Made by a program: the position numbers and the translations under genes. A stretch of DNA of 20,091 nt from a virus: positions 1 through 20,091 of the IMG/VR virus record IMGVR_UViG_3300043409_000745; one strand, 5' to 3'. The notes under the pieces were generated by a model. The model was not told where the DNA came from, did no database searches, and was given only the letters and a program-made list of their open reading frames with translations. Numbering within the stretch: position 1 is the first letter of the stretch; every line of letters begins with the position of its first letter. Below, piece after piece: positions 3,025 through 10,334 of the stretch.

Positions 3025-3369
3025 AAGTTTGGCGGCGGCGGCAACGGCCACGGCGTCGGCGGCAATGGCGGTTTCTTGCGCGGCGGCGGCGGTACGGTCG
3101 GCGCCCGCGGCGGCCCTGGCGTAGTACGCGGCCTTTGATTTTGCCACGGCGGCGGAGCGGGCGCGCGTTGCGGTCATGTTTCCCGCGTCCATAGCGGCGC
3201 TAACGGCGGCAATAGCGGCCGCGTAATTTTTGGCGTAGTAGGCGGCCTTTCGATTCATAGCAACGGCGCGAAAATGGGCCGTTACGGACACGTCTGCAAG
3301 CGCACGCGCGACGTAACGGGCTTCCCTGGCAATGCAATAATTCATACGGGTGGTTGCGGTATGTTCCAT
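3007..3369 (-). CDS. Alanine-rich protein with AYYA repeats, first gene after promoter P3
   Basis: The 120-residue protein has two imperfect internal repeats, RKAAYYAKNYAAAIAA (about residues 40-55) and KSKAAYYARAAAGA (about 78-91). It continues alanine-rich to the C-terminal KLAKGGA. It is predicted to be wholly helical, with Tyr and Lys spaced along one face, which would suit a coiled coil or filament, but this is only inference. It is the first gene downstream of the promoter and leader hairpin at 3370-3479, so it is probably made in quantity. Function unknown. Confidence 0.6.
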   Translation of the reverse strand: MEHTATTRMNYCIAREARYVARALADVSVTAHFRAVAMNRKAAYYAKNYAAAIAAVSAAMDAGNMTATRARSAAVAKSKAAYYARAAAGADRTAAAAQETAIAADAVAVAAAAKLAKGGA

Positions 3370-3383
3370 GTTGTCTCATTTCT

Positions 3384-3398
3384 GCGGCATCGTGCCGC
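3384..3398 (-). promoter_or_regulatory. Leader hairpin, copy 1
   Basis: A perfect 6-base-pair stem, GCGGCA-CGA-TGCCGC, lies 14 bases before the start codon at 3369 in the 5' leader of P3. From 3367 to 3398 the sequence is identical to 6045-6076. A possible role is control of translation start or mRNA stability. Confidence 0.65.
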
Positions 3399-3414
3399 GG
3401 GTTGGTTTGCCTGA

Positions 3415-3479
3415 CTCGTCTAATTTAGCATGCAAATAAACAAAGTCAAGCGATTTCGTCGCAAATATTGCAATTTGTG
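3415..3479 (-). promoter_or_regulatory. Promoter P3 with upstream inverted repeat
   Basis: On the minus strand there is a -35 TTGACT (3444-3449), a 16-base spacer and a -10 TAAATT (3422-3427). Eleven bases upstream of the -35 lies an imperfect inverted repeat (3461-3479, arms CAAAT/ATTTG). A second promoter at 6100-6157 has the same parts at the same spacing. Transcription would start near 3415 and run into the alanine-rich genes, terminase and portal. Confidence 0.75.
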
Positions 3480-3494
3480 TTAAATAGTTTGCGG

Positions 3495-7715: not shown

Positions 7716-7908
7716 GGGGCACCTCCGCGGCACGGTGGGCCACGACGCGGGTAGCCGTTTCTCCGCGCCAAATTTCCACCGATTTGGGCATATCAAACGC
7801 AACCCGCACGCGGTCGGCGCGCAGTTTGGAAACCCGCACGGTGCCTAGCGACGTGCCGTTATAAATAAACTCAAATGTTTGGCCGTCCGTGACCGTTACG
7901 ACTAGCAT
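7705..7908 (-). CDS. csrA: CsrA/RsmA-like RNA-binding translational regulator
   Basis: From ATG 7908, with AGGGGG ribosome site six bases upstream, the 67-residue product matches CsrA in length and strand order. It starts MLVVTVTDGQTFEF and has LGTVRVSKLRADRVRVAFDM (21-40) and then PKSVEIWRGE (41-50). Compare the family core 'G-x-Q-V-R-I-G-I-x-A-P-K-x-V-x-V-H-R-E-E'. The key C-terminal arginine (R48) is kept, but the usual R6 is V and the usual H is W. CsrA dimers bind GGA in mRNA leaders and block or stabilise translation. It is placed among early regulators, so it probably acts on host or phage mRNAs. The extension to 8019 is not supported. Confidence 0.8.
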   Translation of the reverse strand: MLVVTVTDGQTFEFIYNGTSLGTVRVSKLRADRVRVAFDMPKSVEIWRGETATRVVAHRAAEVPRVG

Positions 7909-8447
7909 TTGGGACCCCCTAGCGTGGTCGGTTCCGTGTCCGCCACTGCGGCGGCACGGTGTCCATTGTAACGGGACACTAGGCCAGCGACAACCACAAA
8001 GATATCCGAATCCCGCCAATCTTCGTAGCGAGGGGATAATGGTTTATTGCTTAGCCAACCGCTGTAGCGCAGCGCGACCACGGCGCGCGCAATATCGTCG
8101 CGTGGGGTAGCGTCTAGCCGTTGCATGCACGCGGCACGGTCTGCGGCTAGTTCAACGGCGCGGTCGCGCACGCGGTCGGGGTACGACGTTTGCGCGGCAT
8201 GGCGTTCGGCGCTGGCGTTCGCCGTGGCGCGGTAGATGTCGAGAAATTCCGCAACGCGAAACACCGTAGAACCCGACGCGCAGCGGTACGCGTCAATTGC
8301 GTCGCGTACCCATTCATGGTTTAGGTTTGCTAGGCGTGCGTTGATTAGTTCACGTTCGGCGGCGGTCGGTTCAAATCGTGGCCATAGCCCGTTGATTCGG
8401 TCGCGGTTGGTTTGCCAATTTGGTGGGGTCGTGTCGCGGTTGATCAT
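7902..8447 (-). CDS. Replication accessory (helicase loader-like) protein, tentative
   Basis: I choose ATG 8447 (MINRDTT) because the 23 codons upstream in frame coincide with the leader hairpin copy shared with two non-coding leaders. The 181-residue product has LWPRFEPTAAERELINARLA then EWVRDAIDAYRC and VFRVAEFLDIYR in the first 80 residues. This pattern recalls small phage proteins downstream of replication initiators, sometimes proposed as loaders. The C-terminal half is helical with YSGWLSNKPLSPRYEDWRDS. Its stop overlaps the csrA-like start. The function is an inference from position and partial resemblance. Confidence 0.6.
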   Translation of the reverse strand: MINRDTTPPNWQTNRDRINGLWPRFEPTAAERELINARLANLNHEWVRDAIDAYRCASGSTVFRVAEFLDIYRATANASAERHAAQTSYPDRVRDRAVELAADRAACMQRLDATPRDDIARAVVALRYSGWLSNKPLSPRYEDWRDSDIFVVVAGLVSRYNGHRAAAVADTEPTTLGGPKC

Positions 8448-8464
8448 TTGCGTTTCTGATTTCT

Positions 8465-8479
8465 GCGGATTCGTTCCGC
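8465..8479 (-). promoter_or_regulatory. Leader hairpin, copy 3 (covarying stem)
   Basis: The stem GCGGA-ACGAA-TCCGC lies 17 bases before ATG 8447. Flanks match copies 1 and 2: AACCAAACCCGCGG before and CCGCAGAAATCAGA after. The fifth stem pair is A-T here and C-G in the other copies, so pairing is preserved by a double change. Confidence 0.6.
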
Positions 8480-8497
8480 GGGTTTGGTTTGGTTCGG

Positions 8498-8514
8498 GGC
8501 ATTTCTTAAATGCC
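8498..8514. promoter_or_regulatory. Perfect dyad at the end of the initiator gene
   Basis: The sequence is GGCATTT-CTT-AAATGCC with 7-base arms, spanning the stop codon at 8506. It sits about 18 bases before leader hairpin 3. In the P6 leader the -10 dyad sits at a similar distance from hairpin 2. It could be an operator or the stem of a weak terminator. Confidence 0.45.
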
Positions 8515-9006
8515 ATTTAGGCGCGCGCGCCCTTTTTTTCTCTCTCTCTCTCTCTTCTCTACTCTACTCTCCTCTACTCTAATAACGGTGTCCATCGTTA
8601 CGGGGGAAATCGGCGTAACGGTGTCCACCGTTACGGAACGAATCGGCGTAACGGTGGTTGCGTTACGCGTGCGGAATTTGGCCGCGCGTAGCGAACCCTG
8701 CGCGCGTTGTTTCGCGGTTTCGCCATTGTGTTCGCCGTAGCGTAGTAGTGCAATTCCAAATGGCGCGTCAATTTCTTCCAACCAACCCACGGCAAATAGT
8801 GCCGCGGCCACGCCAGGTATGCACGCCATAGCGTCTACCTGGCGCGCCGTGAAATAGCGCAAAAACCCGTCGGTAGAATGTTCATCGGCGTACGACCATA
8901 ACACCACCAACGCGCCCACGACGTGCGGCGGCGGGTGTCCAACTAGACGCGCGATTTCCGCGACCCGCGGGTCCGACGCTAAATTGGTTCGTACCTTAAT
9001 CCACAA
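8506..9006 (-). CDS. Phage replication initiator-like protein, gene carries the putative origin
   Basis: The 166-residue protein begins MWIKVRTNLASDPRVAEIAR and continues VVGALVVLWSYADEHSTDGF and IALLRYGEHNGETAKQRAQG. This is a winged-helix-like N-terminal domain that I recognise from phage replication proteins. The C-terminal part is low complexity: an 11-residue repeat (TVTPIRSVTVD / TVTPISPVTMD), then a very charged tail (ESRVEKRERERKKGRAR). This tail is encoded by 33-base DNA repeats and a purine tract, so the DNA rather than the protein may be conserved there. The start is a TTG overlapping the previous gene's end. Role inferred from family resemblance and position. Confidence 0.7.
   Translation of the reverse strand: MWIKVRTNLASDPRVAEIARLVGHPPPHVVGALVVLWSYADEHSTDGFLRYFTARQVDAMACIPGVAAALFAVGWLEEIDAPFGIALLRYGEHNGETAKQRAQGSLRAAKFRTRNATTVTPIRSVTVDTVTPISPVTMDTVIRVEESRVEKRERERKKGRARLNGI
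8531..8666. other. Putative origin of replication
   Basis: Three iterons (8582-8666) lie next to a 50-base tract (8531-8580) that is all pyrimidine on the plus strand except three A residues, including long TC repeats. Lambda and related phages have the same layout: iterons plus a strand-biased easily melted tract inside the initiator gene. The location in the replication block supports an origin role. This is inference; no experiment is available. Confidence 0.6.
8582..8666. repeat. Iterons: three 33-base direct repeats, each with a dyad
   Basis: Copies start at 8582, 8615 and 8648, exactly 33 bases apart. Copy 2 holds a perfect inverted repeat with 9-base arms (GTAACGGTG-TC-CACCGTTAC, 8615-8634). 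Copy 1 is nearly identical, and copy 3 keeps the left arm and the CGTTAC end. A diverged copy is found at 7956-7974. They lie inside the initiator-like gene, like the iterons in lambda gene O. Confidence 0.8.
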
Positions 9007-9379
9007 TTTGGCCGCCGATTCTGCGCACGCGCGCGATGCGTGTCGCCGCCGCTAGGTATTCGATGCGTTTGGCGCCGTCCAACATTTCGTAGATCAGTTC
9101 CGCGGCGCGCACCGTGTCCACATGTACCCCAATGCGTTTCGCAAACCGCGCACGCCGCGGGGATAGGTGGCCAGGCATCATATCGTAGACGATGCCGACT
9201 ACCGCCAGTGGACGCGGTAGCCCCGTTTCGGGCCAAATGATTTCCGCCGCGTGCATCGCTTCCGTGATGGTAAACGCGTGCGACGGCACGCGCCCCACGC
9301 CCACGGCGCATCGGACGGATTCAACCGCCCGCGCGCCGTGGGTAATGTCGGGGGAACTAGAACGGCAATTCGTCGGCAT
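8996..9379 (-). CDS. Small protein with possible helix-turn-helix
   Basis: Using ATG 9379, which lies inside the last codons of the erf-like gene, the product is 127 residues (MPTNCRSSSPDITHG). The middle reads AFTITEAMHAAEIIWPETGL. The C-terminal part has LSPRRARFAKRIGVHVDTVR, which fits a helix-turn-helix, then a helix AAELIYEMLDGAKRIEYLAA. It overlaps the initiator gene by 11 bases. It may help replication or regulate it, and is not assigned to a family. The start is uncertain; no strong ribosome site is seen. Confidence 0.6.
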   Translation of the reverse strand: MPTNCRSSSPDITHGARAVESVRCAVGVGRVPSHAFTITEAMHAAEIIWPETGLPRPLAVVGIVYDMMPGHLSPRRARFAKRIGVHVDTVRAAELIYEMLDGAKRIEYLAAATRIARVRRIGGQIVD

Positions 9380-10334
9380 GCGCGATAGCCCTTTTTTTCG
9401 TGGTTGGTGTCGGTGTCGGTGTCGGTTGCGCAACGTCGCGCAATTCCACTAGTAACGGCATGCGCGACCCGCCGCGTTTGATTATGACGGGCACAAACGT
9501 AACGCCTAACACGTCGCGCGACTGGTCGCAAATATCGGCGTACAACACCCCGTCCAACACATATTCCGACGTAGAGCCGTCCGCAATAAATTCGCCAATG
9601 TGGAACGTTTGTCCGTTCGCAATTCGTTCGCTAATTCGGTGGCATAGCGCGGGTGGTTGCGGTTCGGTCACGGGGTTCGTTCGTTCCCACGCCGCCGCGG
9701 GGGCCACGGGCGCCGCTGGCGGCACGGTTGCCGCCATGCGCGCGTTGATTGCTTGCACGGGTGTTTGGGCGGTGGCGCGCGGCGACGCCGTAGCGGGCGT
9801 CGTAGCGGCCGTGGGCGCACGGCGTATGCCGTGTTCCGCGGTGCCACTAGCGTCGTTACGCTGATCCATCGACCCGTCGCCGTCTTCGCGTGGCAACAAC
9901 AACACGTCGCGTAGCCAATAGCCTAGCGACGTCGTCAACGCGCTGGCTACCGCCTTATCGATTGGGCGCCCCTTTTCCACGACCACGGGCCAAACGATTT
10001 CGGCGATCGCTTCCTCAAGTGTCCACGCATGCGCTACGGACACCGTAGACACGACGTACAACCCGTCGTCGGTCACACGCCAGGCCGTACGCCTAGCGAC
10101 TACGCCGCCGATTTGTAGCGCGGCGCGGCATGCTGAAATCATGCCCTCCGCGCTCGTGTAACTGTATCGGTGAAACGTGTTTTTAGCATCCTTTGCCACG
10201 CCATCGATTGCGCCCTGCGCAACCAACAACCCGTCCACCAAACCGACCGTACCCGTACGCGGACATTTTGTGTCCGACGCGTCGCCCTCGATTACTTTGT
10301 CGGGGGCCACGATTCCTGTTCGTATCTTCGCCAT
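9357..10334 (-). CDS. erf: Erf-family single-strand annealing recombinase
   Basis: The 325-residue protein has the ERF core at about 34-155. Key stretches are LLVAQGAIDGVAKDAKNTFH, RYSYTSAEGMISACRAAL, SVAHAWTLEEAIAEIVWPVV and AVASALTTSLGYWLRDVLLL. An Ala/Pro/Thr-rich linker (about 165-230) leads to a second domain (FHIGEFIADGSTSEYVLDGV). The end is a PTPTPTPT run and the acidic tip ADELPF, which resembles the tail by which SSB proteins recruit partners. Erf anneals complementary strands during phage recombination and genome circularisation. It follows the exonuclease gene and has an AAAGG ribosome site. Confidence 0.85.
   Translation of the reverse strand: MAKIRTGIVAPDKVIEGDASDTKCPRTGTVGLVDGLLVAQGAIDGVAKDAKNTFHRYSYTSAEGMISACRAALQIGGVVARRTAWRVTDDGLYVVSTVSVAHAWTLEEAIAEIVWPVVVEKGRPIDKAVASALTTSLGYWLRDVLLLPREDGDGSMDQRNDASGTAEHGIRRAPTAATTPATASPRATAQTPVQAINARMAATVPPAAPVAPAAAWERTNPVTEPQPPALCHRISERIANGQTFHIGEFIADGSTSEYVLDGVLYADICDQSRDVLGVTFVPVIIKRGGSRMPLLVELRDVAQPTPTPTPTTKKRAIAHADELPF

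Follow-up and report, generated by a model that had tools for sequence, protein, structure and literature searches.

A probable iteron-type replication origin within the initiator gene of a phage

Results

The initiator gene and its neighbors

The DNA analyzed was a viral stretch of 20,091 nt (IMG/VR record IMGVR_UViG_3300043409_000745, positions 1 to 20,091), referred to here as the window. Its minus strand carries at 8506..9006 a gene with a TTG start for a 166-residue protein, which a first-pass annotation of the sequence had described as initiator-like. Profile searches supported that description, as the protein matched PHROG 2509 ("replication initiation protein") over residues 2-151 with an E-value of 3.2e-31 and PHROG 9474 with an E-value of 4.6e-26. 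Its PHROG matches were to families 2509, 9474, 3926, and 2447 only, and there was no match to Pfam, the lambda O family included. The alignment to the 277-position PHROG 2509 profile stops at profile position 142; the C-terminal domain of that family is absent from the window protein, whose gene ends after the purine tract described below. Near relatives (L019-L022, L259-L264, L266, and L269) are equally short. Relatives of the protein identified by tblastn were those of epsilon15, phiPSA1, Xanthomonas phage CP2, Cobetia phage Carin1, and a Rac variant, and PHROG 2509 was matched by 114 of 114 relatives.

An AF2 model of the protein (mean pLDDT 84.6) predicted, in order, a winged-helix-like DNA-binding domain, a long basic helix (residues 95-116), a linker, and a C-terminal helix rich in R, E, and K. 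The linker was poorly defined and coincides with the stretch encoded by the inverted repeats discussed below, and the C-terminal helix (residues 138-164) was predicted confidently. The fold neighbors among viral predicted structures were primosomal protein 1, replisome organizers, and DUF1376 proteins, and a BFVD fold match was to Streptococcus phage Abc2. Sequence and fold searches of the PDB gave no significant match, with MarR-type winged helices scoring best, and a viral scan with the single protein as query gave no match.

The next gene (7902..8516, minus strand; 204 residues) has an ATG that overlaps the stop of the initiator gene, and it occupies the same place in near relatives. Its product matched no known family or fold, and identities as lambda P, DnaC, or G39P were unsupported. 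At the corresponding position, locus L004 has a DnaC-like loader. Since the product has no family or fold match, it is by position only that we consider this gene a candidate helicase loader. Another minus-strand gene (8996-9433), for a protein of about 130 residues with no family match, lies between the gene of an Erf-like annealing protein and the initiator gene. A gene is present in this place also in L019 and L021.

Dyads and a purine tract within the initiator gene

The initiator gene of the window contains three dyads. Dyad 1 (8582..8601, ATAACGGTGTCCATCGTTAC) is 20 bp long with one mismatch, and its outer half-site adjoins the purine tract, as in relatives. Dyad 2 (8615..8634, GTAACGGTGTCCACCGTTAC) is also 20 bp and has perfect 9-bp arms, or 10 bp if the flanking C/G pair is counted. 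Dyad 3 (8648..8666, GTAACGGTGGTTGCGTTAC) is 19 bp, the first in the coding direction and the most distant from the tract. The coordinates confirmed the first-pass observation of an inverted repeat in each copy, with perfect 9-base arms in the second. The dyad starts are spaced 33 bp apart, and the array had been described as three 33-base direct repeats. Copies 1 and 2 are indeed full repeats (27 of 33 positions identical), whereas copy 3 is identical to copy 2 at 15 of 33 positions and matches it as a dyad only, so that the array consists of two full 33-bp repeats and a third dyad. No further 19-20-bp dyad with GTAACG arms was found in the 20-kb window.

We compared these features with a synonymous null in which the protein was fixed and codons were resampled 20000 times from the usage of the other genes of the window. 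The six copies of the half-site 6-mer were equalled in one of the 20000 resamplings, the number of inverted 6-bp arm pairs spanning 17-22 bp in 24, and the identity at a lag of 33 in 114.

The purine tract lies between the dyads and the end of the gene, at about 8530..8581 (purine on the minus, coding strand and pyrimidine on the plus strand), where it codes for EESRVEKRERERKKG. As first reported for a tract of about 50 bases, the plus strand has only three purines from 8530 to 8579, at 8561, 8566, and 8577. None of the 20000 synonymous resamplings reached the observed value, and in 100 first-order Markov sequences modeled on the whole window the tract score never exceeded 17, compared with 36 observed. 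Arginine is encoded by AGA or AGG at five of five positions in the tract, compared with 2.5% in the other genes of the window. In duplex stability, only one other separate 40-bp stretch of the 20 kb ranks below the tract, although the tract is not AT-rich, and we consider it a candidate unwinding element. Directly after it in the coding direction is a perfect 12-bp palindrome (8520..8531, GGCGCGCGCGCC). The dyads and the tract lie within 8506-9006, as had been claimed.

Dyad geometry and half-site classes in relatives

Relatives were drawn from 16 phage records and scans of IMG/VR and analyzed as a first set of 71 dereplicated genes and a later set of 58. About 160 dereplicated loci had one layout, in which dyads of 19-20 bp, with half-sites about 11 bp apart, are followed by an (AGAGA)n tract that is locally the least stable DNA. 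The last half-site usually adjoins the tract (CGTTACCTAGAGAAGAG). No clear dyad or tract was found in a few of the relatives (L061, L067, and L082).

Dyads of 19 bp outnumbered those of 20 bp by 67 to 6 in a search that favored lengths of 19-20 bp. In an unbiased count, spans of 19 and 21 bp were seen 54 times, whereas the synonymous null predicts 4.4; for spans of 30 and 32 bp, longer by about 11 bp or one helical turn, the count was 44, compared with 4.5. Half-site repetition was significant against the same null (p<=0.05) in 48 of 71 family genes. In L278 (about 3300-3480), at least seven GTTACG half-sites in a single direction follow one another in 11-bp steps instead of forming dyads.

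Most loci have half-sites of the class GTAACG; the others are GTCCGC, GTTCGC, GTCAT, GTAGAC, GTCAC, and, once, GTCCAC. Between classes the 19-bp geometry is kept and the encoded peptide is entirely different (e.g., NA.SVT versus VSASDADKKRT). The nearest relative, L019 (50% identity), has three dyads at a spacing of 24 bp and a different, 8-residue peptide repeat. This is the opposite of relatives keeping the protein repeat and losing the dyads, the pattern that the first-pass annotation had named as speaking against an origin. The spacing in L019 also indicates that a tandem period of 33 bp is peculiar to the window phage. The first-pass emphasis on that period, as about three helical turns and 11 codons, thus holds in the window, whereas what the relatives conserve is a dyad of 19-20 bp with half-site steps of about 11 bp. 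The broader suggestion that DNA sites are maintained at the expense of the protein was upheld, with dyads and tract persisting across the family while the peptide changes.

Residues of a basic helix separate the half-site classes

The code for helix 95-116 (8659..8724, minus strand), the candidate specificity helix, contains four residues that track the half-site class. Residues 100, 104, 108, and 111 (i, i+4, i+8, and i+11, on one face of the helix) separate GTAACG from GTCCGC phages, with a mutual information with class of 0.79-0.91, compared with at most 0.47 at every other position. The combination of an acidic residue at 104 and Lys at 108 was present in 45 of 45 GTCCGC phages and in 0 of 99 GTAACG phages, a perfect separation across the 144 classifiable dereplicated loci, and the rule also held in a later, separately gathered set. 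GTTCGC phages, whose half-site differs from GTCCGC at base 3, have Met in place of Lys at 108. The residues of the window protein itself (Q100, G104, A108, and F111) are not the commonest set of the GTAACG class.

On a tree of the residues preceding the helix there were at least 13 class changes, on a topology with few well-supported branches, and just one switch between GTAACG and GTCCGC falls on strongly supported branches. Because the helix code and the sites are adjacent in the DNA, co-inheritance contributes to the association; the peaked pattern of residues along the helix argues that recognition contributes too. Based on this covariation, helix 95-116 probably reads the half-sites, with its residues presumably contacting the DNA.

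The covariation also bears on whether the dyads might instead be an operator, at which the initiator or a phage repressor controls transcription or its own synthesis, with replication starting elsewhere. Dyads of about 20 bp would suit repressor dimers as well, and several small DNA-binding-like proteins are encoded close by. We nevertheless consider an operator unlikely, since the sites are late in the initiator gene and not at a promoter, adjoin a conserved destabilized tract, covary with the initiator's own helix, and include several half-sites at the 11-bp steps typical of iterons.

The purine tract across initiator genes

When 108 family loci were averaged, nearest-neighbor duplex stability was weakest exactly at the start of the tract (z = +2.94). 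In 45 of the 108 loci, compared with 7.6 expected, the weakest 30-bp segment lay within 60 bp of the tract. In the 71 family genes, arginine codons were AGR in 132 of 134 cases in the tract, compared with 177 of 1143 outside it. One 29-bp tract sequence (ACCAGAGAAGAGAAGAGAAGAGAAGATAT) occurs identically in epsilon15 (L006), where it is translated in frame 0, and in ctnlZ23 (L003), where frame 2 is used.

These data are relevant to the view that selection acts on the protein only, maintaining a low-complexity linker (VTP repeats) and a coiled helix rich in R, E, and K, and that the DNA repeats arise as a by-product. The confident AF2 prediction of helix 138-164 would fit such a view, as would REEKRRE being the commonest tract-encoded peptide in the family. 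Yet the protein-preserving nulls reject it, the peptides vary between site classes at constant dyad geometry, one tract sequence is translated in two frames in different phages, and the arginine codons of the tract are almost exclusively AGR. Of the alternatives weighed here, this is the one to which we give the least credence, and we regard it as highly improbable.

A further set of loci was retrieved with a 25-base query of tract DNA and nothing else. They sit in initiator-like frames, and 50 of the 71 have the motif of the window's initiator family; several of the others, with other N-domains, have different half-site arrays directly upstream. In L285, L287, and L352, dense GTGACG/GTAACG arrays lie immediately 5' of the same purine tract in genes of another N-domain family, suggesting that the tract may be common to several initiator types.

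The tract is often followed by further structure, in that a hairpin of at least 6 bp occurs after it in 44% of family loci, compared with 12% under the synonymous null. Such hairpins, found 15-60 bp past the tract (e.g., in L003, L020, L042, L098, and L109), are of unrelated sequence (CCCCCC..GGGGGG, CCGTATCtaaaGATACGG, ACACACGCtacGCGTGTGT) and often have a TAAC or TTAC loop. In the subgroup of the window there is often a GC-alternating stretch right after the tract instead of a hairpin, as at 8520-8531 in the window and in the near relatives L261, L263, L264, and L269, where stretches or hairpins similar to the window palindrome occur.

Both purine/pyrimidine mirror tracts and hairpins can make forks stall or favor recombination. 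Together with the frequent hairpin after the tract, this would be compatible with a DNA site that serves some other process, such as packaging (a pac site), recombination, or termination, and sits by chance in the initiator gene. Such a site would not be expected to track residues of the initiator's DNA-binding domain if it belonged to a terminase or recombinase, however, and the initiator-like genes that contain the tract are of several N-domain types. We therefore consider a site for another step to be very unlikely, slightly more so than an operator.

Discussion

A proposed mechanism

We propose, with a probability of about 85%, that the window contains a phage replication origin inside its own initiator gene, made up of initiator-bound dyads and a melting purine tract at which a helicase is loaded. 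The proposal builds on the initiator homology, the DNA-level selection on dyads and tract, the conserved geometry, the destabilized tract, and the covariation of residues and sites computed here. From these we infer DNA binding, dimerization, melting, helicase loading, and origin activity. Through their winged-helix domains, initiator dimers would occupy the three dyads of 19-20 bp, with basic helix 95-116 reading each half-site. The bound array would end right at the purine tract, where the duplex is weakest locally, and the tract would open under negative supercoiling. A host DnaB-type helicase would then be loaded there by the initiator, probably with the product of the next gene or a host factor. 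The GC skew, proposed in the first-pass annotation as a check, is uninformative in this 20-kb linear record, which has no end repeats and has nearly all its genes on one strand; the skew shows a drift but no turn at 8.6 kb.

We also lean, with less assurance, toward a broader reading in which this arrangement is a swappable specificity cassette, representing a very widespread and undescribed class of phage origin. Helix, sites, and tract would be held within about 200 bp of one gene, and at least six half-site classes would share one 19-bp geometry. Specificity would change jointly and in frame, so that neighboring phages escape cross-recognition of their origins, and residues 100, 104, and 108 would form a simple recognition code. 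If this is correct, origins could be read from sequence in many phages and prophages that have an annotated initiator but no annotated origin, and the family would offer natural matched pairs of protein and site for testing how initiators read DNA and how origin specificity evolves. In addition, the REEKRREE-like peptide of phage "primosomal" proteins would be a by-product of DNA-level selection for the purine tract.

Comparison with known systems

The locus is best explained as an iteron origin that would operate in the manner of ori-lambda or SPP1 oriL and that lies outside the lambda O family. The iterons of lambda are 19-bp imperfect inverted repeats inside gene O with an easily melted stretch adjoining them, and iteron number varies between lambda and Stx phages, being 4 or 6 (PMC7466680). 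The window is similar in that its dyads and tract lie inside the initiator gene (8506-9006), the dyads are inverted repeats of 19-20 bp, and the stability minimum, at the tract, adjoins them. Unlike lambda, in which the melting region is AT-rich, the candidate in the window is a purine tract; the initiator is not a recognizable relative of lambda O by Pfam or PHROG, the half-site sequences differ, and the family has several site classes tied to specific initiator residues. The first-pass label "lambda-like" is thus apt for the layout and the probable mechanism but not for homology, given the lack of a Pfam match to lambda O and the different PHROG families, and its statement that the repeat sequence is unlike that of lambda was correct.

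In SPP1, gp38 binds repeats within gene 38 beside an AT-rich unwinding element, and the start of the helicase loader gene (gp39) overlaps the initiator stop (PMC6316719). Similarly, the window has sites within the initiator gene beside a candidate unwinding element, and an overlapping next gene. The differences from SPP1 are that the product of this next gene has no detected similarity to a loader, that repeat type and initiator family differ, and that SPP1 has a second origin, oriR.

PHROG 2509/9474 initiators (epsilon15, phiPSA1, CP2, and the Rac variant of E. coli 442/2), which are annotated as "replication initiation protein" or "primosomal protein I", have the same N-terminal domain and the same layout of dyad and purine tract. 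They extend well past the tract, whereas the window protein stops after it, and they have one dyad and single half-sites compared with the three dyads of the window. Kinship to Phage_rep_org_N (PF09681), the lactococcal and streptococcal replisome organizers, is weak in both sequence and fold (the latter from the Abc2 match), with 3 of 114 members at E<=0.01 and no Pfam match for the window protein.

The K-12 Rac prophage, which has an active origin, oriJ (PMC3945230), encodes the DUF1376 initiator ydaU. We rejected ydaU as a member of the window's N-domain family, since its N-domain and its repeats are both different. Its C-terminal region is nevertheless that of the 442/2 Rac variant. The two Rac variants, L018:5120-5977 (E. 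coli K-12 ydaU) and L011:1228-2016, have in common a C-terminal region and a C-run/G-run stretch and differ in N-domain and repeats (TGTTCAAAC versus GTAACG). From these sequences, N-domain and origin seem to have been swapped as a unit before a constant C-terminal domain.

For the switching of specificity, the closest precedent is the type-specific recognition of origins by O proteins among lambda, phi80, 82, and P22. No earlier description of the origin of this family was found in a search of the open-access literature. An iteron origin inside an initiator gene is already known in kind. What is new, as far as our searches reach, is an architecture common to a large group of initiators, a purine tract, the candidate unwinding element, that is kept by selection on the DNA, and a switching of helix residues in step with site class.
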